Part shown: positions 28,813-41,255 of the stretch, piece after piece
How the letters are laid out: each line of letters starts with the position of its first letter
Numbering within the stretch: position 1 is the first letter of the stretch
From: Halosegnis marinus
GTDB lineage: Archaea; Halobacteriota; Halobacteria; Halobacteriales; Haloarculaceae
Length of the DNA: 64,000 nucleotides
Direction of reading: 5' to 3'
Assembly (NCBI RefSeq): GCF_029338355.1
Contig: NZ_CP119802.1
Location: forward strand, 2,170,001-2,234,000
Translations under genes and position numbers: made by a program
The notes under the pieces: generated by a model
What the model was told of the DNA's origin: nothing
The model's database searches: none
The model's input: only the letters and a program-made list of their open reading frames with translations

Positions 28813-29301
28813 ATGGACGAGCGTGCAGAACTCCTCGACCTGTTGCGGGAGAACGCCCGCTACACGACCGCCGACCTCGCCCGGATGCTCGGGACCGACG
28901 AGGCAGCAGTATCCGAGGGGATCGCCGCGCTCGAAGCGGAGGGCGTCGTCGCCGGCTACCGCGCCGTCCTCGACCCGGCGAAACTCGACCCCGAACCGGT
29001 GCAGGCCCACGTCGAGTGTAACGTCACGCTCGACCGCGAGACCTCCTACGACGACATCGCCGAGCGGCTGGCCGGCTTCCCCGAGGTGGAGTCGCTCCGG
29101 CTCATGTCCGGCGACTACGACTTCGCCCTCGAAGTGGAGGCCGACTCGATGGGCGAGGTGTCGCGGTTCGTCTCCGAGAAGGTCGCGCCCCTCCCCGAAA
29201 TCACCCAGACGGTGACCCACTACGTGATGGAGACGTACAAGCGGGCGGGCCACCGGTTCGAGGACGGCGACGGCGACGACCGCCTCGCCTACTCGCCATG
29301 A
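28813..29301 (+). CDS. Lrp/AsnC-family transcriptional regulator
   Basis: 162 residues. The N-terminal winged helix (ELLDLLRENARYTTADLARM) is followed by the RAM/ACT-like ligand domain (PEPVQAHVECNVTL, ESLRLMSGDYDFALEVEA). It lacks the first Arg-rich region of some Lrp proteins but has the right length. It ends in a four-base ATGA overlap with the aminotransferase gene, so it probably senses an amino acid and controls this pair. Start at ATG 28813, 28 nt after a TTAAC element. Confidence 0.92.
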   Translation: MDERAELLDLLRENARYTTADLARMLGTDEAAVSEGIAALEAEGVVAGYRAVLDPAKLDPEPVQAHVECNVTLDRETSYDDIAERLAGFPEVESLRLMSGDYDFALEVEADSMGEVSRFVSEKVAPLPEITQTVTHYVMETYKRAGHRFEDGDGDDRLAYSP

Positions 29302-30452
29302 GCGGCGACGGGCCGCTCGCGCCCTCCGAGCGGGTCGCCTCGGTGCCCGAGTCCGGCATCCGGAAGTTCTTCGAGGTGGCCGCGGAGATGGACGACGTCG
29401 TCTCGCTCGGCGTCGGCGAGCCGGACTTCGCGACGCCGTACCGCGCCCGCGAGGCCGCCATCGACTCGCTCCAGCGCGGGAAGACCTCCTACACCGCGAA
29501 CAAGGGGATGGCCGCGCTTCGCGAGCGCATCGCCGACCACGTGACGCGCTACGACCTCGACTACGACCCCGACGCGGAGGTACTCGTCACCGCGGGCGCG
29601 AGCGAGGCCATCGACCTCGCCTTCCGCGCGCTGGTCGACCCCGGCGACACCGTCGCCATCGCCCAGCCGTCGTACGTCTCCTACGAGCCGGGCGTCCGCT
29701 TCGCGGACGGCGAGCCGCTGCCCGTCCCGACCTGCGCCGAGGACGAGTTCGCGCTCACCCGCGAGGCGCTCGAAGCCGCGGGCGCGAGCGAGGCCGACCT
29801 GCTCGTCTACTGCTACCCGAACAACCCTACCGGGGCGACGATGAGCGAGGAGGCGCTCCGCGAGGTGGCGGCCTTCTGCCGCGAGCACGACATCGGCGTG
29901 CTGGCCGACGAGATATACGCCGCGCTCACCTACGAGGGCGAGCACACCTCCATCGCGACGCTCCCCGGAATGCGCGAGCGAACCGTCGTCTTCAACGGCT
30001 TCTCGAAGGCGTACGCGATGACGGGGCTCCGGCTGGGCTACGCGCTCGCGCCGCCGGCGGTGGTCGACTCGCTCAACCGCGTCCACCAGTACACGATGCT
30101 GTCGGCCCCGACGACGGCCCAGCACGCGGCCATCGAGGCGCTCGACAACTGCGAGTCGGACGTCGCCGAGATGCGCACCCAGTACGATCGTCGGCGGAAC
30201 TTCGTGCTCGCGCGGCTCGACGAGATGGGCATCGACTGCTTCGAGGCGACCGGCGCGTTCTACGTGTTCCCCGAGTCGCCGTGGCCCGACGCGGGCGAGT
30301 TCGCCGAGGCGCTGCTCGAAGCCGAGCAGGTCGCCGTCGTCCCGGGCGACGCGTTCGGCGAGGGCGGCGAGGGGCACCTCCGGATGTCGTACGCCTCCTC
30401 CATGGCCGACCTGCGGACCGCGATGGACCGGCTCGAACGGTTCCTCGACTGA
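29298..30452 (+). CDS. class I/II PLP-dependent aminotransferase
   Basis: 384 residues, fold-type I. SLGVGEPDFATP is the N-terminal substrate region; CYPNNPTGATMS (about 172-183), ADEIYAALTYEG with Asp204 and NGFSKAYAMTGLRLGY with the PLP Lys at 237 follow; RMSYASSM near the end holds the substrate carboxylate Arg. This is the AspC/aromatic-aminotransferase group. Exact substrate unknown. It is co-transcribed with, and translationally coupled to, the Lrp regulator. Confidence 0.93.
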   Translation: MSGDGPLAPSERVASVPESGIRKFFEVAAEMDDVVSLGVGEPDFATPYRAREAAIDSLQRGKTSYTANKGMAALRERIADHVTRYDLDYDPDAEVLVTAGASEAIDLAFRALVDPGDTVAIAQPSYVSYEPGVRFADGEPLPVPTCAEDEFALTREALEAAGASEADLLVYCYPNNPTGATMSEEALREVAAFCREHDIGVLADEIYAALTYEGEHTSIATLPGMRERTVVFNGFSKAYAMTGLRLGYALAPPAVVDSLNRVHQYTMLSAPTTAQHAAIEALDNCESDVAEMRTQYDRRRNFVLARLDEMGIDCFEATGAFYVFPESPWPDAGEFAEALLEAEQVAVVPGDAFGEGGEGHLRMSYASSMADLRTAMDRLERFLD

Positions 30453-30502
30453 CAGTACGCACCCGTTAACCGCCGCTTAACGGGGGCCGAAATCGGGGCA
30501 AA

Positions 30503-30510
30503 CCTTTTTC
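30503..30510 (+). promoter_or_regulatory. TATA-like element of the pilB operon
   Basis: CCTTTTTC about 30 nt before the ATG at 30534, suggesting a leaderless transcript and supporting that start over the earlier ATG at 30519. Confidence 0.5.
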
Positions 30511-30533
30511 TTCGTCGTGTGTTCTCTCGTGCA

Positions 30534-32876
30534 ATGGCTATCGACGACGCCGACGCCGGCGACACCGAACCGAGCGGGACGCCCGGCGTCGAGGTCGCGG
30601 ACGAGGGGGCCGCGACCGAGGCGGGCGGGGCGACCGTCGGCGAGTACACCTGGGAGGACTACAAGCGGGAGTTCTTCTACGACGACGAGGGGAACGCCCC
30701 GGAGGGCGAGACGTTCGACGAGGACGGCGCGCTCCCCTACGAGGGCGACACCCGCGCCGTGCTCGGCGAGGGGAGCGCCGTCGCGGACCTCGTCGCCGGC
30801 ATCCGCGAGTACAACACCGTCCGGGTGAACCCGGACCTCGACGAGGACGCCTTCTTCTCCGACGCCGACGGCGTCCCCACCGTCGTCTCCCGCTACGACC
30901 TGGAGAAGGCGGTCCCCCACGAGAAGAAGAGCCACTTCCGCGAGGTGGACCGCTACTGGGTGAACGAGCCGTACGCGTTCGTCATCATCTTCCACTCCGA
31001 GAAGGAGAACGAGAAGAAGTACTACCTCGTGGAGCCGTACCTCACCCCCATCGAGCGGGACCTGAAGGACTTCCTCTCCGGGAAGCTGAAGACCGCCATC
31101 AAGTACTCCTCGGACGACGTGGTCGTCGAGGGGAGCGACGACGCCCGCGCCGGCGTCATCGAGCGCGAGACGCGGAACCTCCTCGACCGCTACGACCTCT
31201 ACGAGACGGGGTCGGAGCCCGCCCAGGCCGGCGGCGACGGCGGCGACGGCGGCCTGATGGCCCAGCTGAAGGAGGGGCTCGGCATGGCCGAGGAGTCCGA
31301 CGACGAGCGGCTCCCCCAGCCGCTCCGAGGGCTGTCCGTCCGTCCCGAACCCGCGCTGCTCGCGGAGGACGGCGACACCCTCTCCGAGTACCAGATAGAG
31401 AAGCTGCTCTACCTGCTGAAGCGGAACTTCATCGGGTTCGAGCGCATCGACGGCATCAAACACGACATCAACGTGGAGGACATCTCCTGTGACGGCTACA
31501 ACTCCCCCGCGTTCGTCTACCACTCCGACTACGAGCAGATCATCACGAACGTCTACCACGACGAGACGGAGCTCGACGACTTCGTGGTGAAGATGGCCCA
31601 GCGCTCGGGGAAGGGTATCTCGAAGCGCCAGCCGCAGGTGGACGCGACCCTCCCCGACGGCTCCCGTGCCCAGCTCACCCTGGGGCGGGAGGTGTCGGAC
31701 CACGGGACGAACTACACGATTCGGCAGTTCAAGGACGTCCCGTTCACCCCCGTGGACCTCATCAACTGGAACACCTTCTCGCTGGACGAGATGGCGTTCC
31801 TGTGGCTCTGTATCGAGAACAACAAGAGCCTGATATTCGCGGGCGGGACGGCGTCGGGGAAGACGACCTCGCTGAACGCGGTGTCGCTGTTCATCCCGTC
31901 GAAGGCGAAGATCGTCTCCATCGAGGACACCCGCGAGGTCGAACTCCCTCAGCGGAACTGGATCGCCAGCGTCACGCGTCCGTCCTTCTCGGACGACGAC
32001 AAGGGCGACGTGGACGAGTTCGACCTGCTGGAGGCCGCCCTGCGTCAGCGGCCCGAGTACATCGTGATGGGTGAGATCCGTGGCGAGGAGGGCCGCACCC
32101 TCTTCCAGGTCATGTCCACCGGCCACACCACGCTCACCACCTTCCACGCGGACTCCGTCGGGGAGGTCATCAAGCGGTTCACGACCGAGCCGATCAACGT
32201 CTCGAAGACGATGTTCACGGCGCTCGACCTCGTGTCGATTCAGACGCAGACACGGGTGCAGGGTCGGAAGGTCCGCCGGAACAAGTCGCTCACCGAGATC
32301 AACCACTACGACCCGGAGAACGACGAGATCAACGTCCAGGACGTCTACCAGTGGCAGGCCGAGACCGACGAGTACCTGAAGATGGGCCAGTCGAACACCG
32401 TCGAGCAGATCATGTTCGACCGGGGCTGGTCCTACGAGGAGCTCGATCGTCAGCTGGAGACGCGCAAGATCGTCCTCGCGTACCTCATCCAGCACGGCCT
32501 GAACACGTACACGCAGGTCGCGGCGTCGCTGCAGGCGTTCATGAACGACGAGGAGACCATCCTCACGCTCGTCGCCAACGGCCGCCTGGAGCGCTCGCTG
32601 GAGGACCTCCGCGAGATGGAGTCCGTCCAGATCGACATCGACCCCGAGAAGGAGGCGATGGTGCCCCGGCCGGACGCGGGCGAGGAGATGCTCGCCGAAA
32701 CCGGGGAGACGCTGGAGGCCGCCGAACCCCTCCTCGAGGAGTACCGCGGCGAACACAGCGAGGGGGTCGCGAGCGCCCTGCTGGACGGGCTGGACGCCGA
32801 CACCGGCTTCGACTTCGGCTCCATCGCCGGCGCGCTCGGCACGGACGGCGGCCGGCCGCAGGGTGACGAGTCGTGA
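30534..32876 (+). CDS. type IV pilus/Tad-type secretion ATPase (PilB-like)
   Basis: 780 residues. An acidic N-terminal extension (about 1-115) and a winged N-domain (about 270-400, KLLYLLKRNFIGFERIDGI) precede the hexameric GspE/VirB11-type motor. Walker A is GGTASGKTT (about 437-445), the Asp box IVSIEDTREVELPQRNW, Walker B YIVMGEIRGEE (about 509-519) and His box STGHTTLTTFHAD (about 528-540). It powers pilus assembly or export in archaea. A C-terminal acidic tail follows. It overlaps the PilC-like gene by four bases (GTGA). Confidence 0.94.
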   Translation: MAIDDADAGDTEPSGTPGVEVADEGAATEAGGATVGEYTWEDYKREFFYDDEGNAPEGETFDEDGALPYEGDTRAVLGEGSAVADLVAGIREYNTVRVNPDLDEDAFFSDADGVPTVVSRYDLEKAVPHEKKSHFREVDRYWVNEPYAFVIIFHSEKENEKKYYLVEPYLTPIERDLKDFLSGKLKTAIKYSSDDVVVEGSDDARAGVIERETRNLLDRYDLYETGSEPAQAGGDGGDGGLMAQLKEGLGMAEESDDERLPQPLRGLSVRPEPALLAEDGDTLSEYQIEKLLYLLKRNFIGFERIDGIKHDINVEDISCDGYNSPAFVYHSDYEQIITNVYHDETELDDFVVKMAQRSGKGISKRQPQVDATLPDGSRAQLTLGREVSDHGTNYTIRQFKDVPFTPVDLINWNTFSLDEMAFLWLCIENNKSLIFAGGTASGKTTSLNAVSLFIPSKAKIVSIEDTREVELPQRNWIASVTRPSFSDDDKGDVDEFDLLEAALRQRPEYIVMGEIRGEEGRTLFQVMSTGHTTLTTFHADSVGEVIKRFTTEPINVSKTMFTALDLVSIQTQTRVQGRKVRRNKSLTEINHYDPENDEINVQDVYQWQAETDEYLKMGQSNTVEQIMFDRGWSYEELDRQLETRKIVLAYLIQHGLNTYTQVAASLQAFMNDEETILTLVANGRLERSLEDLREMESVQIDIDPEKEAMVPRPDAGEEMLAETGETLEAAEPLLEEYRGEHSEGVASALLDGLDADTGFDFGSIAGALGTDGGRPQGDES

Positions 32877-34900
32877 GCCTCCGGACGCGCGACGGGGGAG
32901 GGGGCGGCCAGCAATACGGCGACGCGGACGCGCTCTCGGACGCCTTCTACCCGCTGTACCGCCGGCTGTTCGACGAGGACTCCGACTTCGTCGCCGGGAT
33001 GGAGACGAAGCTCGCGGAGGCGCGGATGCCCGCGACGGTAGAGATATATCTCTCGCGGGCGCTCGCCATCGGGGCCATCGCCGGCGTCGCGCTGTGGCTC
33101 GCCGGCACCGCCGCCGGCTGGCTCGTCGTCGAACTGTTCATCCGTGACGCGCCGCTGCTGCTGGGACTGCCGCTCCCGGACTCCCTCATCCCCATCGTGA
33201 ACGCGCTGAAGCTCCCGGCGTTCATCGTCGTGACGGGGCTCGTCTTCGGCTCCATCGGCTTCGGGCTGGGGTTCGGCTCGATGGCGTCGGTTCCGTACTT
33301 CCGCTCCGACGCGCGCAAACGCGAGATAAACGTCCTCCTCTCCGACTCGGTCTCCTTCATGTACGCGCTGTCCGTCGGCGGGCTCAATCAGCTCGAGATC
33401 CTCCAGGCGATGGCGAAGGCCGACGACACCTACGGCGAGGTGGCACAGGAGTTCCAGTCCATCGTCCTCGAGACCGACTACTTCGACACGGACTACCGGA
33501 CCGCCATCCGCAATCAGGCGCTCCAGACGCCCTCCGACGAACTGAGCCAGTTCCTCACGGACATGCTCTCCATCGTCAACTCCGGCGGGGACATGGAGCA
33601 GTTCCTGGAGGACCAGAAGGAGAAGCACATGCGCACCTCCAAGCAGGAACAGGAGATGGTGCTGGAGACGCTGGAGCTGTTCGGCGAGATGTTCATGACG
33701 CTGTCGCTGTTCCCGCTGCTGCTTATCATCATCCTCGTCATCATGTCGATGCTGGGCGAGGCCCAGACCATCCTGCTGTACGGGACGGTGTACGGCCTCA
33801 TCCCGCTCATCGGCGCGGGCTTTCTCGTGTTGGTCTCGACGGTCGTCCAGGACGAGGTCGGCGACGGCTACCTGCAGGCCGACGACGAGGAGGTCGGCAC
33901 CTCGACGGGGAAGATGTTCGACCTCGGCCTCGTCGAGGGGTACGAGGGCCGGTGGGGCGTCTTCGACCGCATCAAGTCCCGCGAGGGGACCCACGAGACC
34001 AAGGAACTGCTGAAACAGCCCCACCTGTTCTTCCGCGACCACCCGCTCACCATCCTCGCGGTGACGCTGCCGGCGACGGCCGTCCTGCTCGGGTTCTTCG
34101 CCGCGGCGGGCGTCGGCCCCACGAGCATCGAGGGGATGAAGAGCCAGCCCATCCGCGGCACCTTCGTCTGGATGTACCTGCCGCTGTACCTCAACGGCAT
34201 CCCGCTGACGGTGTTCTACGAGTGGAACGTCCGCTCGCGGACGGGTATCACGAAGAGCCTCTCCGACAACCTCCGGAAGCTCTCCTCCGCGAACGACACG
34301 GGGATGACCCTGCTCGAATCCATCAAGGTCGTCTCCGACACCTCGTCGGGAAAGCTCGCGGACGAGTTCGACGAGATGCACGCGAAGGTGAACTACGGCA
34401 CCGGGCTGAAAGCCGCGCTCATCGAGTTCAACAACAAGTACCACATCCCGCGGCTCGCCCGGACGGTGAAGCTCATCTCGAAGGCACAGGAGGCCTCCTC
34501 AGAGATAACGCAGGTCCTCTCGACGGCGGCACAGGCCTCCGAGAACCAGGACGACATCGAGCGCGACCGCAAGTCGCGCACCCGGATGCAGGTGGTCATC
34601 ATCATCATGACCTACCTCACCCTGCTCGGCGTGATGGCCATCCTGAAGCTGAAGTTCCTCGACGTGATGGCCGGCCTCGCACAGCAGGCTTCCGGCGGCG
34701 GGGGCGGCGCGAGCGCGGGCGGCTTCGCCGGCGGGGTCGACACCGACCTGCTGACGATGCTGTTCTTCCACGCCGTCACCCTCCAGGCCATCATCTCCGG
34801 GTTCATCGCCGGCTACATCCGTGACGTGTCCATCCTTGCGGGGATGAAGTTCGCGGTCGTCCTCCCGACGTTCGCGTTACTGGTGTTCCTGTTCATATGA
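32873..34900 (+). CDS. type II/IV secretion inner-membrane platform protein (PilC/TadC-like)
   Basis: 675 residues with two T2SSF domains, each followed by membrane helices. First copy near residues 155-330 (SVSFMYALSVGGLNQLEILQ, KQEQEMVLETLELFGEMFM), second near 450-600 (LSDNLRKLSSANDTGMTLLE, RDRKSRTRMQVVIIIMTYL). About nine membrane segments. It is the platform on which the ATPase acts. GTG start at 32873 overlaps the previous stop; the stop overlaps the next start (ATGA). A Gly-rich loop (ASGGGGGASAGGFAGG) lies near residue 610. Confidence 0.94.
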   Translation: MSLRTRDGGGGGQQYGDADALSDAFYPLYRRLFDEDSDFVAGMETKLAEARMPATVEIYLSRALAIGAIAGVALWLAGTAAGWLVVELFIRDAPLLLGLPLPDSLIPIVNALKLPAFIVVTGLVFGSIGFGLGFGSMASVPYFRSDARKREINVLLSDSVSFMYALSVGGLNQLEILQAMAKADDTYGEVAQEFQSIVLETDYFDTDYRTAIRNQALQTPSDELSQFLTDMLSIVNSGGDMEQFLEDQKEKHMRTSKQEQEMVLETLELFGEMFMTLSLFPLLLIIILVIMSMLGEAQTILLYGTVYGLIPLIGAGFLVLVSTVVQDEVGDGYLQADDEEVGTSTGKMFDLGLVEGYEGRWGVFDRIKSREGTHETKELLKQPHLFFRDHPLTILAVTLPATAVLLGFFAAAGVGPTSIEGMKSQPIRGTFVWMYLPLYLNGIPLTVFYEWNVRSRTGITKSLSDNLRKLSSANDTGMTLLESIKVVSDTSSGKLADEFDEMHAKVNYGTGLKAALIEFNNKYHIPRLARTVKLISKAQEASSEITQVLSTAAQASENQDDIERDRKSRTRMQVVIIIMTYLTLLGVMAILKLKFLDVMAGLAQQASGGGGGASAGGFAGGVDTDLLTMLFFHAVTLQAIISGFIAGYIRDVSILAGMKFAVVLPTFALLVFLFI

Positions 34901-35616
34901 ACGACCGTGGCCAGACCGTCCTCGACTTCGCCGTCGGCATCAGCGTCTTCCTCGTCGTGGTGGCGTTCGTGCTCACGTTCGTCCCCGGGATGGTCCAGCC
35001 GTTCCAGTCCTCGACGCAGGCCGAGACGGCCGCGGCCGACCGGCTGGCCGAACAGGTCGCCGCCGGCATGCTGGTCGAGGACGTCTCGGAGCCGTACCTG
35101 CTCGACGCCGGGTGCGTCTCGACGTTCTTCGCCCTGGAGAACTCCGACGGCGACCCGGCGAACGACCGCGACGCCTACGGGGACAACGACGGCGTCGTCC
35201 GGTCGGACCTCTTCGACATCACCGGGTCCGACCTCTACACCGCCGGCGACTGCGGGTTCTCCGTGTCCGACGGTGTCTTCGAGCGACTCGCGACGGACAC
35301 GAGCGACATGAACGTCCGCGTCAGCCTCGTCGGCGACCTGGACGGGGACGGCACGGCGAACCTCCTGTGTATCGACGCCAACGAGGCGGGGGCGGACACC
35401 CCCGACAGCGGCGACACGCTCGTCGAGACCACGGACCCCTACGCCTCGGGGACCGACTGTGACATGACCGGGGACGACTACGACCTCGCGTTCGAGACCG
35501 GAAACGACCCGCCGGCCGACTCCTCGTCCGTCGTCACCGCGCGGCGGCAGGTGACCGTGGACGGCGCGTTCTCCAACGGCCGCGTCGACGCCGCCCTCGT
35601 CGTGGAGGTGTGGTGA
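34897..35616 (+). CDS. pilin-like protein 1 (DUF7287-like)
   Basis: 239 residues. The N-terminus MNDRGQTVLDFAVGISVFL has a class III-type signal: short polar leader DRG, then a 24-residue hydrophobic helix with a D five residues in. This resembles archaeal type IV pilins cut by PibD, but cleavage is inferred. The ectodomain has four Cys (AGCVS, GDCGF, LLCID, TDCDM) that could form two disulfides, and Asp-rich calcium-like loops (NSDGDPANDRDAYGDNDG). First of five pilin-like genes after pilC, overlapping it by four bases. Confidence 0.82.
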   Translation: MNDRGQTVLDFAVGISVFLVVVAFVLTFVPGMVQPFQSSTQAETAAADRLAEQVAAGMLVEDVSEPYLLDAGCVSTFFALENSDGDPANDRDAYGDNDGVVRSDLFDITGSDLYTAGDCGFSVSDGVFERLATDTSDMNVRVSLVGDLDGDGTANLLCIDANEAGADTPDSGDTLVETTDPYASGTDCDMTGDDYDLAFETGNDPPADSSSVVTARRQVTVDGAFSNGRVDAALVVEVW

Positions 35617-36207
35617 ATGGACAGAGGACAGGCGTTCACGCTCGAATCCATCACCGCGGGGCTGTTGCTCATCGGCGGACTCGTCTTCGCCCTGCAGGCG
35701 ACGGCCGTGACGCCGCTGTCGGCGTCCACGTCGAGCCAGCACATCGAGAACCAACAGCAGGCGGTCGCCGAGGGCGTCCTCGCCGCCGCCGTGGACGACG
35801 ACGCGCTGTCCGTGACGCTCCGCTACTGGAACGATTCGGGCGCGACGTTCCACGACAGCAGCGATGAGGCGTACTACGTGGACGAGGACCTCGACACGCG
35901 GTTCGGGGCGCTGTTACAGCGGGCGCTCACCTCCCGGTCCATCGTCGCGAACGTGTACGTCCACTACGAGACGCCTGCCGGCGGCTCCCGCGTCCAGCGG
36001 GTCGTCTACCGCGGCGCCCCCTCGGACAACGCCGTCTCCGCGAGCGCCCGGACGGTGCTGTTCGACGACGACCCGCTGCTCGACGCGGACGCCCGCCCGA
36101 CGGGGACGACGCTCGCCGACGCGGACACGTTCTACGCGCCGGACGCTCACCCCGACAGCATCGTGTTCAACGTCGTGCGCGTGGAGGTGGTCGCGTGGCG
36201 GCAGTGA
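35617..36207 (+). CDS. pilin-like protein 2 (DUF7288-like)
   Basis: 196 residues. MDRGQAFTLESITAGLLLIG closely matches the type IV prepilin consensus G-x-FTLxE, with the Glu at the +5-like position, then a hydrophobic helix to about 27 and a mixed alpha/beta ectodomain without Cys. It starts directly after the stop of the previous gene. Like the other genes of the row it probably forms a pseudopilin complex with them. Confidence 0.82.
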   Translation: MDRGQAFTLESITAGLLLIGGLVFALQATAVTPLSASTSSQHIENQQQAVAEGVLAAAVDDDALSVTLRYWNDSGATFHDSSDEAYYVDEDLDTRFGALLQRALTSRSIVANVYVHYETPAGGSRVQRVVYRGAPSDNAVSASARTVLFDDDPLLDADARPTGTTLADADTFYAPDAHPDSIVFNVVRVEVVAWRQ

Positions 36208-37556
36208 CCGGCGACCGCGACCGCGCCCAGCTCATCCTCATCGGGGGGCTCGCGCTCGCGATAAGCTTCGTCGCCATCGCGCTGGTGCTCAACTCCGCCA
36301 TCTACACCCACAACCTCGCCAGCCGCTACGACGGCGGGGGCGACGACGCGACGACCTTCGCGCGCGACGCCCGCGCCGGCGCGGGGGCGGCGCTCGACCA
36401 CGCCAACGGCGCCGGCGGGAGCTACGCGGCGGTCGAGGGCAACTACAGCGAGGCGATAGGGAACGTGAGCGAGGCGTTCGGCCGGTCGGCGGCGGTGAGC
36501 GGCCGCCTCGTCTCCATCGACCACCTGAGCGAGTCGCGCGGCGTCCGCGTCGTGGACGACGAGCCCGGCGGGAGCGACTTCCGGCCGGCGAACGGGAGCG
36601 CGTCGTCGTGGTACGTCGCCACCGACGCGACGGTGCGGAACTTCGAGATGACCGTCGACCGGACCTCGTTGGACGACCTCGGCGACAGCTTCGACCTCGG
36701 AAGCCTCTTCGGGCTGTTCGGCGGGAGCGAGACGCCGTTCACCGTCCGGTTCGAGGACGGAACCGACACGTACCTCGTCGCCGTCTACGCCGACGAGGCG
36801 GACGACGAGGTGAAGGTGCAGGTGTACGAGGGCGACGACGGCAGCGGCACCGAGGTCGGCACCTGCTCCGTCGTCGCGGACACGGCGACCGTCGAGTACG
36901 CCGCCGCGCGGGTCAACGGCGAGCGGTGTGCCCCGCTGGAGGCGCTTGACGACCTCGGCGGGAGTCTCGACGTTCGCTACGACTACCCCGACTCGGCCGT
37001 CGGGAGCTACGAACTCGTCGCCGACCGCCTGGTCGCGGGCGAGGACGCCGTCGGGCCGTTCGTCAGCGCCGTGAACGACCGGAACTTCGGCTACGGCTGT
37101 ACGGACGGCGGGTCGGTGTTCAACGGCACGGCCGACCCCGGGCCCCACGCGGTCCCCGCGCTGTACGACACGACCGTCGAGACGACCTACGAGTCGGCCG
37201 ACGCGACGTTCACGAGCGAGTGGCGCGTCGCGCCCGACGAGCGGACGGTTCCGACCGCCCCGCGTATCGAGTCGTTCGTGGTGAACGACGGGACGAGCGG
37301 GGACGACCAGTTCGACCTCTCGTGGTCGGCGACGGACCCGAACGGCGACCCCGTCTCCGTCGAGGTCACGTTCGTCGATAGCGACGGCGATACCGAGACG
37401 TTCACGGCTCCCGGCACGGTGACGCTGCCGACGGCCCTCCAGGGTGACGGCCCGTACGACGTGACGATAACGGCCACGGCCGGGGGCGAGTCGCGTTCCG
37501 TCAGCGAGCGCCACGCCGACGACGGCACGAGCGGTCCCGTGGGGTGTCCGACGTGA
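36204..37556 (+). CDS. pilin-like protein 3 (DUF7261-like)
   Basis: About 450 residues, the largest of the five. The N-terminal helix is RAQLILIGGLALAISFVAIA. The start at GTG 36204 gives a four-base GTGA overlap like its neighbours; GTG 36195 is possible. The ectodomain includes four Cys (TCSVV, ERCAPL, YGCTDGG, VGCPT) and an Ig-like C-terminal domain (about 345-440, VEVTFVDSDGDTETF). It may be the tip-type subunit of the set, by size only. Confidence 0.8.
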   Translation: MTGDRDRAQLILIGGLALAISFVAIALVLNSAIYTHNLASRYDGGGDDATTFARDARAGAGAALDHANGAGGSYAAVEGNYSEAIGNVSEAFGRSAAVSGRLVSIDHLSESRGVRVVDDEPGGSDFRPANGSASSWYVATDATVRNFEMTVDRTSLDDLGDSFDLGSLFGLFGGSETPFTVRFEDGTDTYLVAVYADEADDEVKVQVYEGDDGSGTEVGTCSVVADTATVEYAAARVNGERCAPLEALDDLGGSLDVRYDYPDSAVGSYELVADRLVAGEDAVGPFVSAVNDRNFGYGCTDGGSVFNGTADPGPHAVPALYDTTVETTYESADATFTSEWRVAPDERTVPTAPRIESFVVNDGTSGDDQFDLSWSATDPNGDPVSVEVTFVDSDGDTETFTAPGTVTLPTALQGDGPYDVTITATAGGESRSVSERHADDGTSGPVGCPT

Positions 37557-37996
37557 GCGAGCGCGGCGTCTCCACCGTCGTCGGCTTCGTGTTGACGCTC
37601 GGCATCACCTCGCTGCTCATCATCGGCCTGCTCATCGCCGCGGGCGGGTTCGTCTCCGACCAGCGGCAGGACACCGTGCGCGACGAACTGGAGGTCATCG
37701 GCCAGCAGGTGGCGGCCGACCTCGCGGCGAGCGACCGGCTGACCCGCGCGGGCGGGACCGAGGTGGGTATCGCGCGGTCGTACCCGCGCACGGTGACGGG
37801 GAGCGGTTACCAGGTCAGGGTGTCGGACCCCGGCACCCCCGGGGAAAGGGTCCGGGTGACGCTCACCGCGGACGACCCGGCGGTGACCGTCGTCGTGGAC
37901 GTGCGCGTTCGGACCCCCGTGCGAGCGACGACCGTCCGGGGCGGCGACCTGACCGTCGCGCTCGACGCCGGGGAACTGGAGGTGCGGAATGACTGA
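37553..37996 (+). CDS. pilin-like protein 4 (DUF7266-like)
   Basis: 147 residues. MSERGVSTVVGFVLTLGITS has the haloarchaeal pilin pattern R-G/A-V-S-x-V-x-G-F/V-x-L. A helix with AAGGFVSDQRQDTVRDELEV continues and the ectodomain is all beta. GTG start at 37553 overlaps the previous stop by four bases (GTGA). Confidence 0.82.
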   Translation: MSERGVSTVVGFVLTLGITSLLIIGLLIAAGGFVSDQRQDTVRDELEVIGQQVAADLAASDRLTRAGGTEVGIARSYPRTVTGSGYQVRVSDPGTPGERVRVTLTADDPAVTVVVDVRVRTPVRATTVRGGDLTVALDAGELEVRND

Positions 37997-38765
37997 CCGC
38001 GCGGTGAGCGAGGTCATCGGGTTCGTCCTCGTGTTCTCGCTCGTGCTCTCGTCGGTGAGCGTCGTGTACGTCGTCGGCTTCGGCGGCCTCCAGGACGCCC
38101 GCGACGCCGAGCAGCTGACGAACGCCGAGCGCGCGTTCGACGTCCTCGCGGACAATATGGACGATATCCACCGCGACAACGCGCCCAATCGCGCGACGGA
38201 GTTCAAACTGTACGACGCGCGCATCGACGTCGGCGACCCGGTGACGTTCAACGTCACCGTGGACAACGGCACCGGCACGCAGAGCTTCTCCGTCGACGCG
38301 CGCCCGGTCGTCTACGCGCCGACCACGGGGGAGACGACGCTCCGGTACCTCAACGGGGCGGTGTTCCGGACGGGCGGGAGCGGCTCCGTCCTGCTGAACG
38401 AGCCCCGGTTCCTGTTCCGCGAGTCCGGCGGCCTCCGCACGGCGGCGTTCCCGCTCATCGAGACGCGACCGGACGGCGTGAACGCCATCGGCGGCTCGAC
38501 GACCGTCCTCATCCGTGCGGACCTGGCGCGCGCCGAGTTGCTGGGCTCGCTGCCCGACGCCGCCGGGCGGTACGACGTGACCTTCCGCGTCGAGACGGCG
38601 GCGGCGCGCGCGCCGACGTGGGAGCGGTTCCTGGAGGCGGAGCTGAACGACGCCTACGGCGACGCCGACCGGTGTACGGTGTCGGGCGGAACCGTCGAGT
38701 GCGCGTTCGAGACGGACCGGCTGTACGTCTCGGCGACGCGCATCGACGTGGCTATCGACTCGTGA
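37989..38765 (+). CDS. pilin-like protein 5 (DUF7289-like)
   Basis: 258 residues. MTDRAVSEVIGFVLVFSLVL is close to the haloarchaeal pilin signal DRAVSxVIG. Hydrophobic helix to about 32, then a beta-rich ectodomain with two Cys (RCTVSGG, VECAFE) near the end. Overlaps the previous gene by eight bases. The stop abuts the stop of the convergent gene with no spacer, so the operon ends here. Confidence 0.82.
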   Translation: MTDRAVSEVIGFVLVFSLVLSSVSVVYVVGFGGLQDARDAEQLTNAERAFDVLADNMDDIHRDNAPNRATEFKLYDARIDVGDPVTFNVTVDNGTGTQSFSVDARPVVYAPTTGETTLRYLNGAVFRTGGSGSVLLNEPRFLFRESGGLRTAAFPLIETRPDGVNAIGGSTTVLIRADLARAELLGSLPDAAGRYDVTFRVETAAARAPTWERFLEAELNDAYGDADRCTVSGGTVECAFETDRLYVSATRIDVAIDS

Positions 38766-40355
38766 CTACGCCATCCGGACGTCTATCTCGTTGCGGGTGA
38801 CGTGGAGGTAGGTGACGTAGCGGGCCGACCCCCCGGTGACGATGCGCCCCGACGACGCGCCCTCGTTCACCGTGTCGGAGTTCTTGTCGTCCACGGCGAG
38901 GTCGAACTCCGCGGGAAGCTCGGCGAAGTAGTGGTTGAGGAGCCGGTCGATGCTCTCGGTGTCGCCGACGGTGTACGTCTCGGACTCCCAGTCGCCGTGG
39001 CCGGAGAACGTCGTGGAGTCGCTCGTCCCGCCGAAGTCGTCGCCGGCGTTCTTGAAGTAGACGAGCTGGTCGATGTTGCTCGTGTAGGTGAGGTTCACGT
39101 CGCCCTCGCCGTAGTCGACGTAGCTGCCGTCGCCGTCCTCGTCGTCCACGAAGTCCATCGTCAGCCGTATCTCGTCGTCGACCCCGTCGCCGTCGCCGTC
39201 CACACAGGTGGCTTCGTAGGCGTCGTCCGCGTGCCAGGCGTCGTAGGTGTCGCCCCCGTCGTCGGAGTAGTAGATGTTCAGGCTCACCGCGAGGTCGCTC
39301 GTTCCGCCGGAACAGCCGCTCCCGCCGGACTTTCGCGCGTGTATCTCGAACTGCTGTTGTCCCTCGTCGACGTACATCGACCACTGGAGGTTGTTGAAGT
39401 TCGCCGAGTCGCTGTCGTCGGGCGAGAGCGTGATGGCGAACTCGCTGGTGGCGTGGCCGCCCGAGGCCCCGGAGACGGTGACCGACCCGCCCTCCCCGGG
39501 CATCTCGAAGTCGCCGATCTGGCCCAGCGAGACGAGCGAGATGGTGACGACGTCGTCGTCGGCCCCGTCACCGTCGGTGTCGAAGTACGTCACCTCGCCG
39601 GTCGTCCGCGTCTCGAAGTACTCGCCCCACGCCCGCGCGTACTCGCTCTCGATGCGGACGATGACGTTGCCGTCGGTGATGGGGTTGCGGAACGGCTCCC
39701 CGCCGCAGTCGGGCGACGAGGTGGGGAAGGCGTCCGAGGCGTTCGGGAACACGCGGACCGGGTCCCGCGGCGCGGTCACCGTCGCGCGAGCCGCTCCGGA
39801 GGCCCCGCCCCCGCCGCGCGTGAGCACGATGGGGAGCGTCAGCGTCGCGTCGCGGTAGTGGAACTCCGGCGGCGACACCATCGCGGAGCCGCCGTCGCCG
39901 TCGCCGCTCCAGACGCCGCCGCCCTGGTACGCCAGCGTGCGGCCGTCCGTCGTCGTGTACCGCACCGCGCCCAGCGGCGTCGGGTCGAGGATGTACGCGT
40001 CGTCGCCGCCGAGCACGTCGCTCTCGTTGTCGTACGGGGCCCCGTCCGGGCCGTCGTCGTCACAGTCCAGTTGGACGATGGAGACGCTGCCGGCGTCGGG
40101 GTCCACGCTGTACGTGCCGTCGCCGCGGCCGAAGTCGACGGTCTGGACGTTCGAGTCGCCGAGCGCGACCTGTGCGGCCTGCGAGTCGAACAGCGTCATC
40201 GCCTGCTCGGCGCGCGCGAACTCCGACTGGTCCTGCGTGTCGGTCAGCGCCGCGCCGCCGAACGCGACGACCGCCGTCGTCCCGAGTATCGTCAGGCCGA
40301 GCAGCAGCGCCACGCCGAGCGGGGCTGACTGCGCGCGCTCGTCGGGACGGGTCAT
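38766..40355 (-). CDS. secreted pilin-like protein with calcium-loop motifs
   Basis: 529 residues, opposite strand to the operon. The N-terminus MTRPDERAQSAPLGVALLLG resembles pilin signals, with helix to about 38. The large ectodomain has several Asp loops of the DxDxDG type (FDTDGDGADDD, VDGDGDGVDDE, DDEDGDGSYVDYGEGD, CDDDGPDG), as in thrombospondin-3/dockerin calcium sites, and Cys in QLDCDDD, SPDCGGEP, GSGCSGG and ATCVDGD. Probably a cell-surface, calcium-stabilised protein exported with the neighbouring system. Family not recognised with certainty. Confidence 0.75.
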   Translation of the reverse strand: MTRPDERAQSAPLGVALLLGLTILGTTAVVAFGGAALTDTQDQSEFARAEQAMTLFDSQAAQVALGDSNVQTVDFGRGDGTYSVDPDAGSVSIVQLDCDDDGPDGAPYDNESDVLGGDDAYILDPTPLGAVRYTTTDGRTLAYQGGGVWSGDGDGGSAMVSPPEFHYRDATLTLPIVLTRGGGGASGAARATVTAPRDPVRVFPNASDAFPTSSPDCGGEPFRNPITDGNVIVRIESEYARAWGEYFETRTTGEVTYFDTDGDGADDDVVTISLVSLGQIGDFEMPGEGGSVTVSGASGGHATSEFAITLSPDDSDSANFNNLQWSMYVDEGQQQFEIHARKSGGSGCSGGTSDLAVSLNIYYSDDGGDTYDAWHADDAYEATCVDGDGDGVDDEIRLTMDFVDDEDGDGSYVDYGEGDVNLTYTSNIDQLVYFKNAGDDFGGTSDSTTFSGHGDWESETYTVGDTESIDRLLNHYFAELPAEFDLAVDDKNSDTVNEGASSGRIVTGGSARYVTYLHVTRNEIDVRMA

Positions 40356-40443
40356 TGTACCGTAGTCGGGAGACGCGGTAATAAACGCCGTGGCCGCCGG
40401 GTAGGCGCGGGGTTCGGCGTCATAATATGCTATTAAGTCTTAT

Positions 40444-40470
40444 ACGAAGGTTGTACGAACGTTCAAATAC
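40444..40470 (+). promoter_or_regulatory. operator-like repeats and TATA before the 37-aa gene
   Basis: Direct repeats ACGAAGGTT (40444-40452) and ACGAACGTT (40455-40463) are 11 bp apart; the second is part of the palindrome GAACGTTC (40457-40464). They overlap the start of TTCAAATAC (40462-40470), the likely TATA box 34 nt before the ATG at 40496. A repressor bound here would block TBP/TFB. Confidence 0.5.
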
Positions 40471-40495
40471 GTGTATCGTGTGCTACTGTATCACG

Positions 40496-40609
40496 ATGAG
40501 CGCGACCGACGACGACGCACGACGAACCATGAAGGAGATCAGCCACACACCGCCGACGGGGGACTCCGTCACGGCGGTCTGGGAACGCGGCAGCGAGACC
40601 GGCGAGTAA
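40496..40609 (+). CDS. very small haloarchaeal protein, 37 aa
   Basis: 37 residues, MSATDDDARRTMKEISHTPP then TGDSVTAVWERGSETGE. Hydrophilic, no Cys, no membrane part. TATA-to-ATG spacing of 34 nt supports the ATG at 40496. Not recognised; may be a small regulator or chaperone-like mini-protein, of which haloarchaea have many. It lies alone between the convergent surface-protein gene and the RHH gene. Confidence 0.6.
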   Translation: MSATDDDARRTMKEISHTPPTGDSVTAVWERGSETGE

Positions 40610-40663
40610 CGGGCGGCTCTCCTCGGAGCGTACATTCAAAAGGGAGACGAACCGAGTAGACGC

Positions 40664-40906
40664 ATGTCCGAGACCACCATCGACCTCCCGGACCGCATCG
40701 ACAGCGAGATAGAGCGGTTCATCCAGCAGGGGGAGTTCATCAACCGCGACGAGGCCGTCGAGGAGCTGCTCACGCTCGGTCTCACCGCCTTCGACGTGGA
40801 CGACGAGCCGACGCAGAACCCCGGCGAGGACCTGTTCACGCAGGCGACCGACGACCAGCACGACCCCGCGGCGGACATGGACCCCGACGACGAGTACACG
40901 CTGTAG
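40664..40906 (+). CDS. ribbon-helix-helix (CopG-like) regulator (DUF7120-like)
   Basis: 80 residues. SETTIDLPDRIDSEIERFIQ gives the DNA-contacting ribbon and first helix; GEFINRDEAVEELLTLGLTAF the second helix of an RHH dimer. The acidic tail (residues 45-80) has the form of a haloarchaeal CopG-type extension. Likely a dimeric repressor; target unknown. Confidence 0.82.
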   Translation: MSETTIDLPDRIDSEIERFIQQGEFINRDEAVEELLTLGLTAFDVDDEPTQNPGEDLFTQATDDQHDPAADMDPDDEYTL

Positions 40907-40922
40907 GGCCGGTAGCCCCACG

Positions 40923-40931
40923 ATAACAATA
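40923..40931 (+). promoter_or_regulatory. ATAACAAAG-type promoter element (40956 gene)
   Basis: ATAACAATA, whose first base is 33 nt before the ATG at 40956. First member of the recurring ATAACAAAG-type element of this half of the window. Confidence 0.65.
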
Positions 40932-40955
40932 CCTCGGGGCCGAGACGCGGCCGGT

Positions 40956-41255
40956 ATGTCCCGCTCGCCCGAGGAGTGTACGGCCGTCGAGCCGCTGCCG
41001 CCGACCGTCGCCGCGGTGCTCGACGACCGCCCGGAGCGGCGGCGCGCGTACGTGTGCCTGCTCGGGACGCTCCGCGAGAACGGGGGACGGTGTTCCGCGG
41101 CGGCGCTGGCCGCGGCCCTCGCCCGGGCGGACGACGGCGCGGCCCGTCGGTCGGCGTACCTCGCCGTCCGCCGGGAGTACGTCCCGACGCTCGCGGCGCT
41201 CGGCGTCGTCTCCTACGACGGCGAGGACGGTACCGTGACGCTGCGCGCGGAATGA
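40956..41255 (+). CDS. DUF7344-like winged-helix protein
   Basis: 99 residues. RPERRRAYVCLLGTLRENGG begins the winged helix; AAALARADDGAARRSAYLAVRREYVPTLAALGVVSYDGEDGTVTL gives the recognition helix and wing, with the RRSAYLAVRREYVPTL pattern of the DUF7344 family. Unlike the two related proteins at 42970 and 51218 it has no membrane segments. Probably a DNA-binding regulator. Leaderless by TATA spacing. Confidence 0.8.
   Translation: MSRSPEECTAVEPLPPTVAAVLDDRPERRRAYVCLLGTLRENGGRCSAAALAAALARADDGAARRSAYLAVRREYVPTLAALGVVSYDGEDGTVTLRAE

Follow-up and report, generated by a model that had tools for sequence, protein, structure and literature searches.

A conserved haloarchaeal PilB4-type locus encodes six pilin-like proteins of two predicted signal classes

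The 64,000-nucleotide stretch of the Halosegnis marinus genome analyzed here (contig NZ_CP119802.1, positions 2,170,001 to 2,234,000 of the forward strand; hereafter the window, in whose numbering positions are given) contains, at 30534-40355, a haloarchaeal PilB4-type locus in which genes for an assembly ATPase and a membrane platform protein are accompanied by six genes for pilin-like proteins. An initial annotation of the same DNA had proposed an uncharacterized pilus or Tad-like exporter with several pilin-signal proteins. The genes are listed below; the overlaps between them hang on the choice of start codons.

30534-32876, + strand: B, PilB4-type assembly ATPase, 780 residues (Pfam T2SSE)
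32873-34900, + strand: C, PilC/TadC-type membrane platform, 675 residues (Pfam, two T2SSF stretches)
34897-35616, + strand: p1, pilin-like (Pfam DUF7287, E = 4.8e-35)
35617-36207, + strand: p2, pilin-like (Pfam DUF7288, E = 6.8e-61)
36195-37556, + strand: p3, pilin-like (Pfam DUF7261 at the N terminus, E = 2.4e-07; a sub-threshold fn3-like match near the C terminus, E = 0.0039)
37544-37996, + strand: p4, smallest pilin, 150 residues, candidate major pilin (Pfam DUF7266, E = 1.1e-24)
37989-38765, + strand: p5, compact minor pilin, 258 residues (Pfam DUF7289, E = 5.3e-56)
38766-40355, - strand: p6, large pilin, 529 residues (Pfam DUF7289, E = 8.1e-27, and DUF7308, E = 3e-43)

The T2SSE match and the two T2SSF stretches bear out the PilB-like ATPase and PilC-like platform of the initial annotation, which had also placed and spaced the five tightly packed pilin genes behind the platform correctly. 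From B to p5, successive genes overlap by 4 and 4 bases, abut (p1/p2), then overlap by 13, 13 and 8 bases. The p5 and p6 genes are convergent and lie end to end, and a TATA-like box, read from the sequence, is found at 40379-40386 on the p6 side. The pilin families of p1 to p6 are all Pfam families of unknown function, and a search of the open-access literature for the six family names returned no occurrence. Adjoining p6 are genes for a small DUF7120 protein (40664-40906) and a DUF7344 protein (40956-41255).

To place the cluster among its relatives, two sets of loci were mapped. The first comprised 80 relatives picked by ATPase match alone, among them the second copy in the genome of the window and a small number of ATPases that are distant or broken; the second comprised 80 named loci, of which 67 were long enough to judge, with some genomes common to both sets. 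Synteny in other haloarchaea, proposed at the outset as a check on the cluster, was strongly positive. PilC adjoins the ATPase in 81 of 81 mapped loci, and p1, p2, p4 and p5 are all present beside PilB-PilC in 69 of the 80 loci of the first set and in 64 of the 67 sufficiently long named loci. Among the remaining 11 of 80, L067 breaks off at a contig end shortly behind PilC, the series stops at p4 in L121, five loci (L097-L100 and L128) carry only a weak p5-like protein, and L088, L125, L126 and L127 show none of p1, p2, p4 and p5. The p3 protein was not found in the first-set loci of one family of relatives. Loci syntenic with the window occur in several Haloferax species, including H. gibbonsii and H. 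denitrificans. Two side observations concern these exceptions. In L097, L099 and L100, which belong to one genus, what follows this ATPase and platform is a single large pilin of 465-522 residues from signal to stop, in place of six pilins. In L128 (G061:C4:48000-63000) the ATPase gene is in two pieces ~7 kb apart, one with an in-frame stop, and appears to be an insertion or a broken gene.

Counts of whole genomes give a similar picture. An ATPase match at E <= 1e-100 was found in 112 of 117 genomes of the order, a figure that includes shorter paralogues at ~50% identity. DUF7288, the p2 family, exceeded its cut-off in 184 of 194 good haloarchaeal genomes and, among 14 control genomes, in Haloferax volcanii only. 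Two or more DUF7288 copies were found in 28 of 41 genomes of the window's family versus 4 of 153 others. DUF7287, the p1 family, is wider, being over cut-off in 122 of 196 genomes of the phylum, with many of these matches weak.

In duplications and inversions the pilin set behaves as a module. The window's own genome contains a second complete PilB-PilC-p1..p5-p6 cluster (L049, C1:684000-702000), again with p6 convergent, whose ATPase is 67% identical to that of the window and in which about 2 kb separate p3 from p4. Pilin sets stand in tandem in L135 and L136, they occur without PilB-PilC in the stretch fetched in L134, L137, L138 and L141, and in L087 and L120, from different families, all of p1-p6 is inverted with respect to PilB-PilC. 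In every tandem, detached or inverted case p6 accompanies the set, and because it travels with duplicated and inverted sets we assign it to the cluster, as the initial annotation had done. Where p5 and p6 are neighbors, the two counts place them on opposite strands in 54 of 54 and 46 of 47 pairs (100 of 101 together). The pair is flipped, with p6 rather than p5 behind p4, in 13 loci (L159-L164, L174, L178, L183 and four others). An invertible p5/p6 switch was considered and set aside; in a check of the five longest inverted-repeat pairs per locus in the window and four other loci, flanking repeats were only imperfect (70-84%) and no sign of an active switch was seen.

The N termini of the six proteins were compared next, pooling both locus sets and counting distinct sequences only; open reading frames scoring below 60 bits, repeats, and 3 p3 and 13 p6 sequences lacking a clear signal were left out. 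The p1 signal, R-[GA]/Q-T-x-x-D-[FY], has Gln at +1 and Asp at +5 in 161 of 161 sequences, and the p2 signal, R-[GA]/Q-A-x-T-L-E, has Gln at +1 and Glu at +6 in 160 of 160. The pilin-like N termini reported initially are thus fixed features of these orthologues. Gln is also found at +1 in 135 of 146 p3 and 72 of 107 p6 sequences, whereas Val occupies this position in p4 (142/160) and p5 (139/157). The pilins therefore split into two predicted signal classes, +1 Gln (p1-p3 and most p6) versus +1 Val (p4 and p5). A chance arrangement is excluded by the recurrence of the gene order across haloarchaea and by a class III signal motif that does not vary among orthologues.

A PibD-type prepilin peptidase is encoded elsewhere in the window's genome (Peptidase_A24, E = 5.4e-11), in agreement with the earlier suggestion that a shared enzyme lies outside the window. 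Since this enzyme is PibD-type, it would have to accept both signal classes, provided that processing takes place and that there is no other peptidase. In methanococci, +1 Gln with an acidic residue marks substrates of EppA, and Methanococcus EppA-type pilins have the same +1 Gln and +5 acidic residue as window p1, according to passages of a 2015 review (PMC4371748). EppA, by contrast with the PibD-type enzyme found here in a search with the Peptidase_A24 family, is reported from clade 1 organisms only in the sections consulted of Makarova et al. (PMC4858521).

The window ATPase, of the VirB11/T2SSE class, carries its T2SSE core at residues 362-581 of 780 (Pfam, E = 6.6e-31), with a long N-terminal and a shorter C-terminal extension round it. 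Its closest solved relative is the archaeal secretion ATPase 2oap (E = 8.2e-111). Extended PilB proteins with ~66-76% identity to it over most of its length were found in most haloarchaea searched, and the N-terminal extension is alignable from about residue 22-37 onward in most relatives. A Haloferax denitrificans genome has a single PilB with this N-terminal extension, located in a syntenic cluster, its other paralogues being <=47% identical. Matches to Pfam PilB3_C (25.7 bits) and PilB3_N (21.5 bits) were both sub-threshold (cut-off 27). The ATPase also matches the model of the bindosome ATPase BasE (E = 2.5e-51, far below that model's cut-off), and the p6 protein carries large, possibly carbohydrate-binding domains; both would suit a bindosome-like assembly that presents binding proteins on the cell surface and makes no long filament. 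However, the ATPase scores far better against the archaellum motor model (E = 7.8e-118, itself under that model's cut-off) and the cluster contains no solute-binding protein, so that we regard such an assembly as very improbable.

Comparison with described systems identifies the cluster as a haloarchaeal PilB4-type locus, a locus type described in 2016, and not a new kind of system. Passages of Makarova et al. 2016 (PMC4858521) describe the H. volcanii PilB4 system as having an ATPase with Halobacteria-specific extensions at both ends and its own pilin set, consisting of a predicted PilA-related major pilin (arCOG03926) and a minor pilin of ~250-550 residues; the window cluster shares with this PilB4-PilC4 locus (HVO_1160), assigned to euryarchaeal clade 2 type IV pili, the gene order, the extended ATPase, the PilC and the possession of its own pilins, and its counterparts to the minor pilin of variable length are p5 (258 residues) and p6 (529 residues). 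The match extends to every feature that could be settled, with p4 as a candidate for the PilA-related major pilin. A part of the 2015 review (PMC4371748) had likewise expected a pilus-like structure, containing two large pilins, as the product of PilB4-C4. In the portions of PMC4858521 available to us we met no mention of the +1 Gln/+1 Val split, of moves of the six-pilin module or of two p6 ectodomains, and the word "glutamine" is absent from its main text. No experiments on PilB4 function were found in the open-access literature searched, the passages retrieved giving expression notes only, among them the detection of PilB4 in a medium called GMM (PMC7305310). The label "uncharacterized" in the initial annotation thus holds for function and fails for the locus type.

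The PilA/PilB3 adhesion pili of H. volcanii and the pil-1 and pil-2 systems of Halobacterium salinarum use the same kind of ATPase and platform, and the +1 Val signals of the PilA/PilB3 system recur in window p4 and p5. Unlike the window, the PilB3 and pil-1 loci carry no pilins, according to the relevant section of PMC4858521. An alternative is that p1-p6 are accessory pilins on PilA-type pili built by PilB3 and others, with PilB4 only an alternative motor. Cross-complementation of PilB paralogues in H. volcanii (reported in an excerpt of PMC6491452), the sharing of pilin sets argued to be possible in a passage by Makarova et al. (PMC4858521) and the second cassettes with no PilB-PilC in view (L138, L141) favor this idea, whereas the steady association of the pilin set with this ATPase type across the first locus set (69 of 80 loci), together with the loss of PilA pili upon pilB3-C3 deletion even though pilB4-C4 is expressed (from a passage of PMC4371748), argues against it. 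On balance we consider it unlikely.

The Tad-like exporter reading of the initial annotation did not hold up. A Flp-sized major pilin (50-80 residues) was not met in the locus, the smallest pilin among the listed open reading frames of >=90 residues having 150 residues; none of p1-p6 gave a Pfam match to the Tad minor pilins TadE, TadF or TadG at E <= 1; the locus has a single PilC where Tad systems have a separate TadB/TadC pair; and no substrate-like product was recognized. What survives is an analogy with Tad tips. Parts of PMC12075869 describe bacterial Kil/Tad pili whose TadEFG/Kil tips are interchangeable and are made of a set of minor pilins, one of them large and bearing a variable domain. 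As in those pili, the haloarchaeal minor-pilin set includes one large modular pilin and is duplicated in genomes, and the acidic +5 residue of p1 resembles the G/XXXXE motif given in that source. In outline the haloarchaeal set would work like Tad tips, but by the tests run it is not a member of the Tad family.

The initial annotation had also suggested that the pilins form a pseudopilin complex that exports or displays a surface enzyme or fiber, that is, a short pseudopilus acting as exporter or piston. Several pilins that differ from one another and bear large ectodomains recall type II secretion pseudopili, and together with the +1 Gln and acidic +5/+6 residues of p1 and p2 they are what such a device would lead one to expect. 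Against this, no secretin, assembly protein, channel or dedicated substrate of type II secretion or of an exporter was recognized among the genes scanned at 29298-41252, the DUF7344 gene beside p6 was not found in any of the other 180 loci, and a small PilA-like candidate major subunit is present. To our knowledge, archaea of this group also have no outer membrane to cross. An exporter of this kind thus has little support, and we consider it improbable.

The six proteins differ in what can be said of their structures. The p1 protein has a Cys pair near residues 73 and 119 that is kept in most of 20 aligned sequences; of the paired Cys and Asp loops noted initially, the Cys pair is therefore a conserved feature, and the Asp loops are present in window p6. 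A match of p1 to sc-CC-5-24 (E = 6.5e-05), which spans ~50 residues, was taken as spurious. The AlphaFold2 model of p2 (predicted local distance difference test score [pLDDT] of 92) has a long kinked N-terminal helix followed by a small alpha/beta head. Relatives of p6, when aligned, have in common a frame that begins with the N-terminal pilin helix and DUF7289 domain and closes with a last strand, and the stretch between varies; in window p6 a DUF7308 ectodomain is inserted before the conserved last strand.

A Pfam scan of 34 p6 relatives found DUF7289 in all 34, DUF7305 in 19 and DUF7308 in 15. DUF7305 and DUF7308 are two unrelated ectodomains on one constant pilin frame. With our own profiles, p6-class frames comprised 56 of DUF7308 type, 47 of DUF7305 type and 20 of neither, and neither ectodomain was found in any of 169 p5 proteins. 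The p6 proteins of L153, L155, L171 and L181, which are about 690-730 residues long and score poorly, may belong to kinds lacking DUF7305 and DUF7308. The window's genome has both kinds, DUF7308 in window p6 and DUF7305 in the p6 of the second set (L049), and two Halegenticoccus species differ in ectodomain type. A PilC tree of 44 rows requires at least 5 changes of type, and well-supported branches force 4 of these; on a tree of 53 p6 frames, 2 changes suffice and 1 is also compatible. These trees suggest that two old kinds of p6 exist and that lineages have probably swapped whole p6 genes.

Taken together, the data are best explained by a PilB4-type type IV pilus in which p4 is the major subunit and minor pilins make up a tip complex that ends in an exchangeable p6, a reading to which we assign a probability of about 0.65. 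Six pilin-like proteins in a type IV filament locus also agree with the earlier view that this is not a one-pilin pilus. In such a pilus, PibD would remove the short basic leaders of the pilins, and the PilB4 ATPase and PilC platform would pull the mature pilins from the membrane into the filament, roles assigned by homology. The bulk of the filament would be the small PilA-like p4, as its size and weak PilA kinship suggest. The +1 Gln pilins p1, p2 and p3 would prime assembly and join the DUF7289 proteins p5 and p6 in a complex at the tip, by analogy with Kil/Tad pili. The large p6 would cap the filament and display the exchangeable ectodomain, DUF7308 in the window, and the likely job of the whole would be to attach to other cells or surfaces or to recognize them.

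Several observations weigh against this explanation. The system is known here from its genes alone, from which filament, processing and phenotype are inferred. No H. volcanii locus was among those fetched, and the identity with HVO_1160 was drawn through other Haloferax species. In 25 of 81 loci the series stops at p5 and no p6 follows; some of these loci run close to a contig end, and one (L085) carries p6 upstream. The link between p6 and the cluster is thus not strict. Repeated grafting of domains onto p6 was rejected, the frame tree needing only 2 changes and whole-gene replacement being simpler. For p4, the Pilin_N match (E = 0.016) is below cut-off, and although the best two PDB rows name archaeal type IV pilins, their E values of 0.29 and 0.68 (the latter for Natrinema PilA2) are not significant. 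PDB profile searches with p1, p3, p5 and p6 matched no pilin. The p2 model gave no significant PDB match, pilins included, in Foldseek and structure comparison (middling Z only), a missing fold match that excludes nothing. The p6 model has a pLDDT of 76 overall and mostly 55-85 in the insert region. Residues ~278-510 of p6 gave VIA-align rows for galectins, sialidase lectin domains and beta-sandwich parts of GH32 enzymes, all weak (Z = 5.2-6.8, under 8, the tool's reliable level), and the best Foldseek rows for the whole model were poor and uninformative. The weak ConA/galectin-like match of this model makes a lectin-like p6 tip a lead.

The finding is real and ordinary in kind, was already predicted in print, and concerns a system nearly universal in haloarchaea. 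It matters as a pilus locus near-universal in an archaeal class and duplicated in much of the window's family, for which no function was found in the literature searched, and what makes it interesting is a conserved pilin set of two classes together with a p6 that can be exchanged. With signal motifs this constant and such a p6, the role of the extra pilins becomes testable in Haloferax volcanii, a species in which genes can be deleted. According to a passage of PMC12542753, the pilus locus is down-regulated during HFTV1 infection in Haloferax gibbonsii. We tentatively raise the possibility, one we hold with less confidence than the pilus itself, that nearly all haloarchaea have an adaptable-tip pilus, built from a six-pilin module, whose replaceable, possibly lectin-like p6 decides which cells or surfaces are bound. 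If so, it would correspond, in archaea, to the exchangeable Tad tips that predatory bacteria have, and could underlie cell-cell contact before mating, biofilm partner choice or virus attachment.

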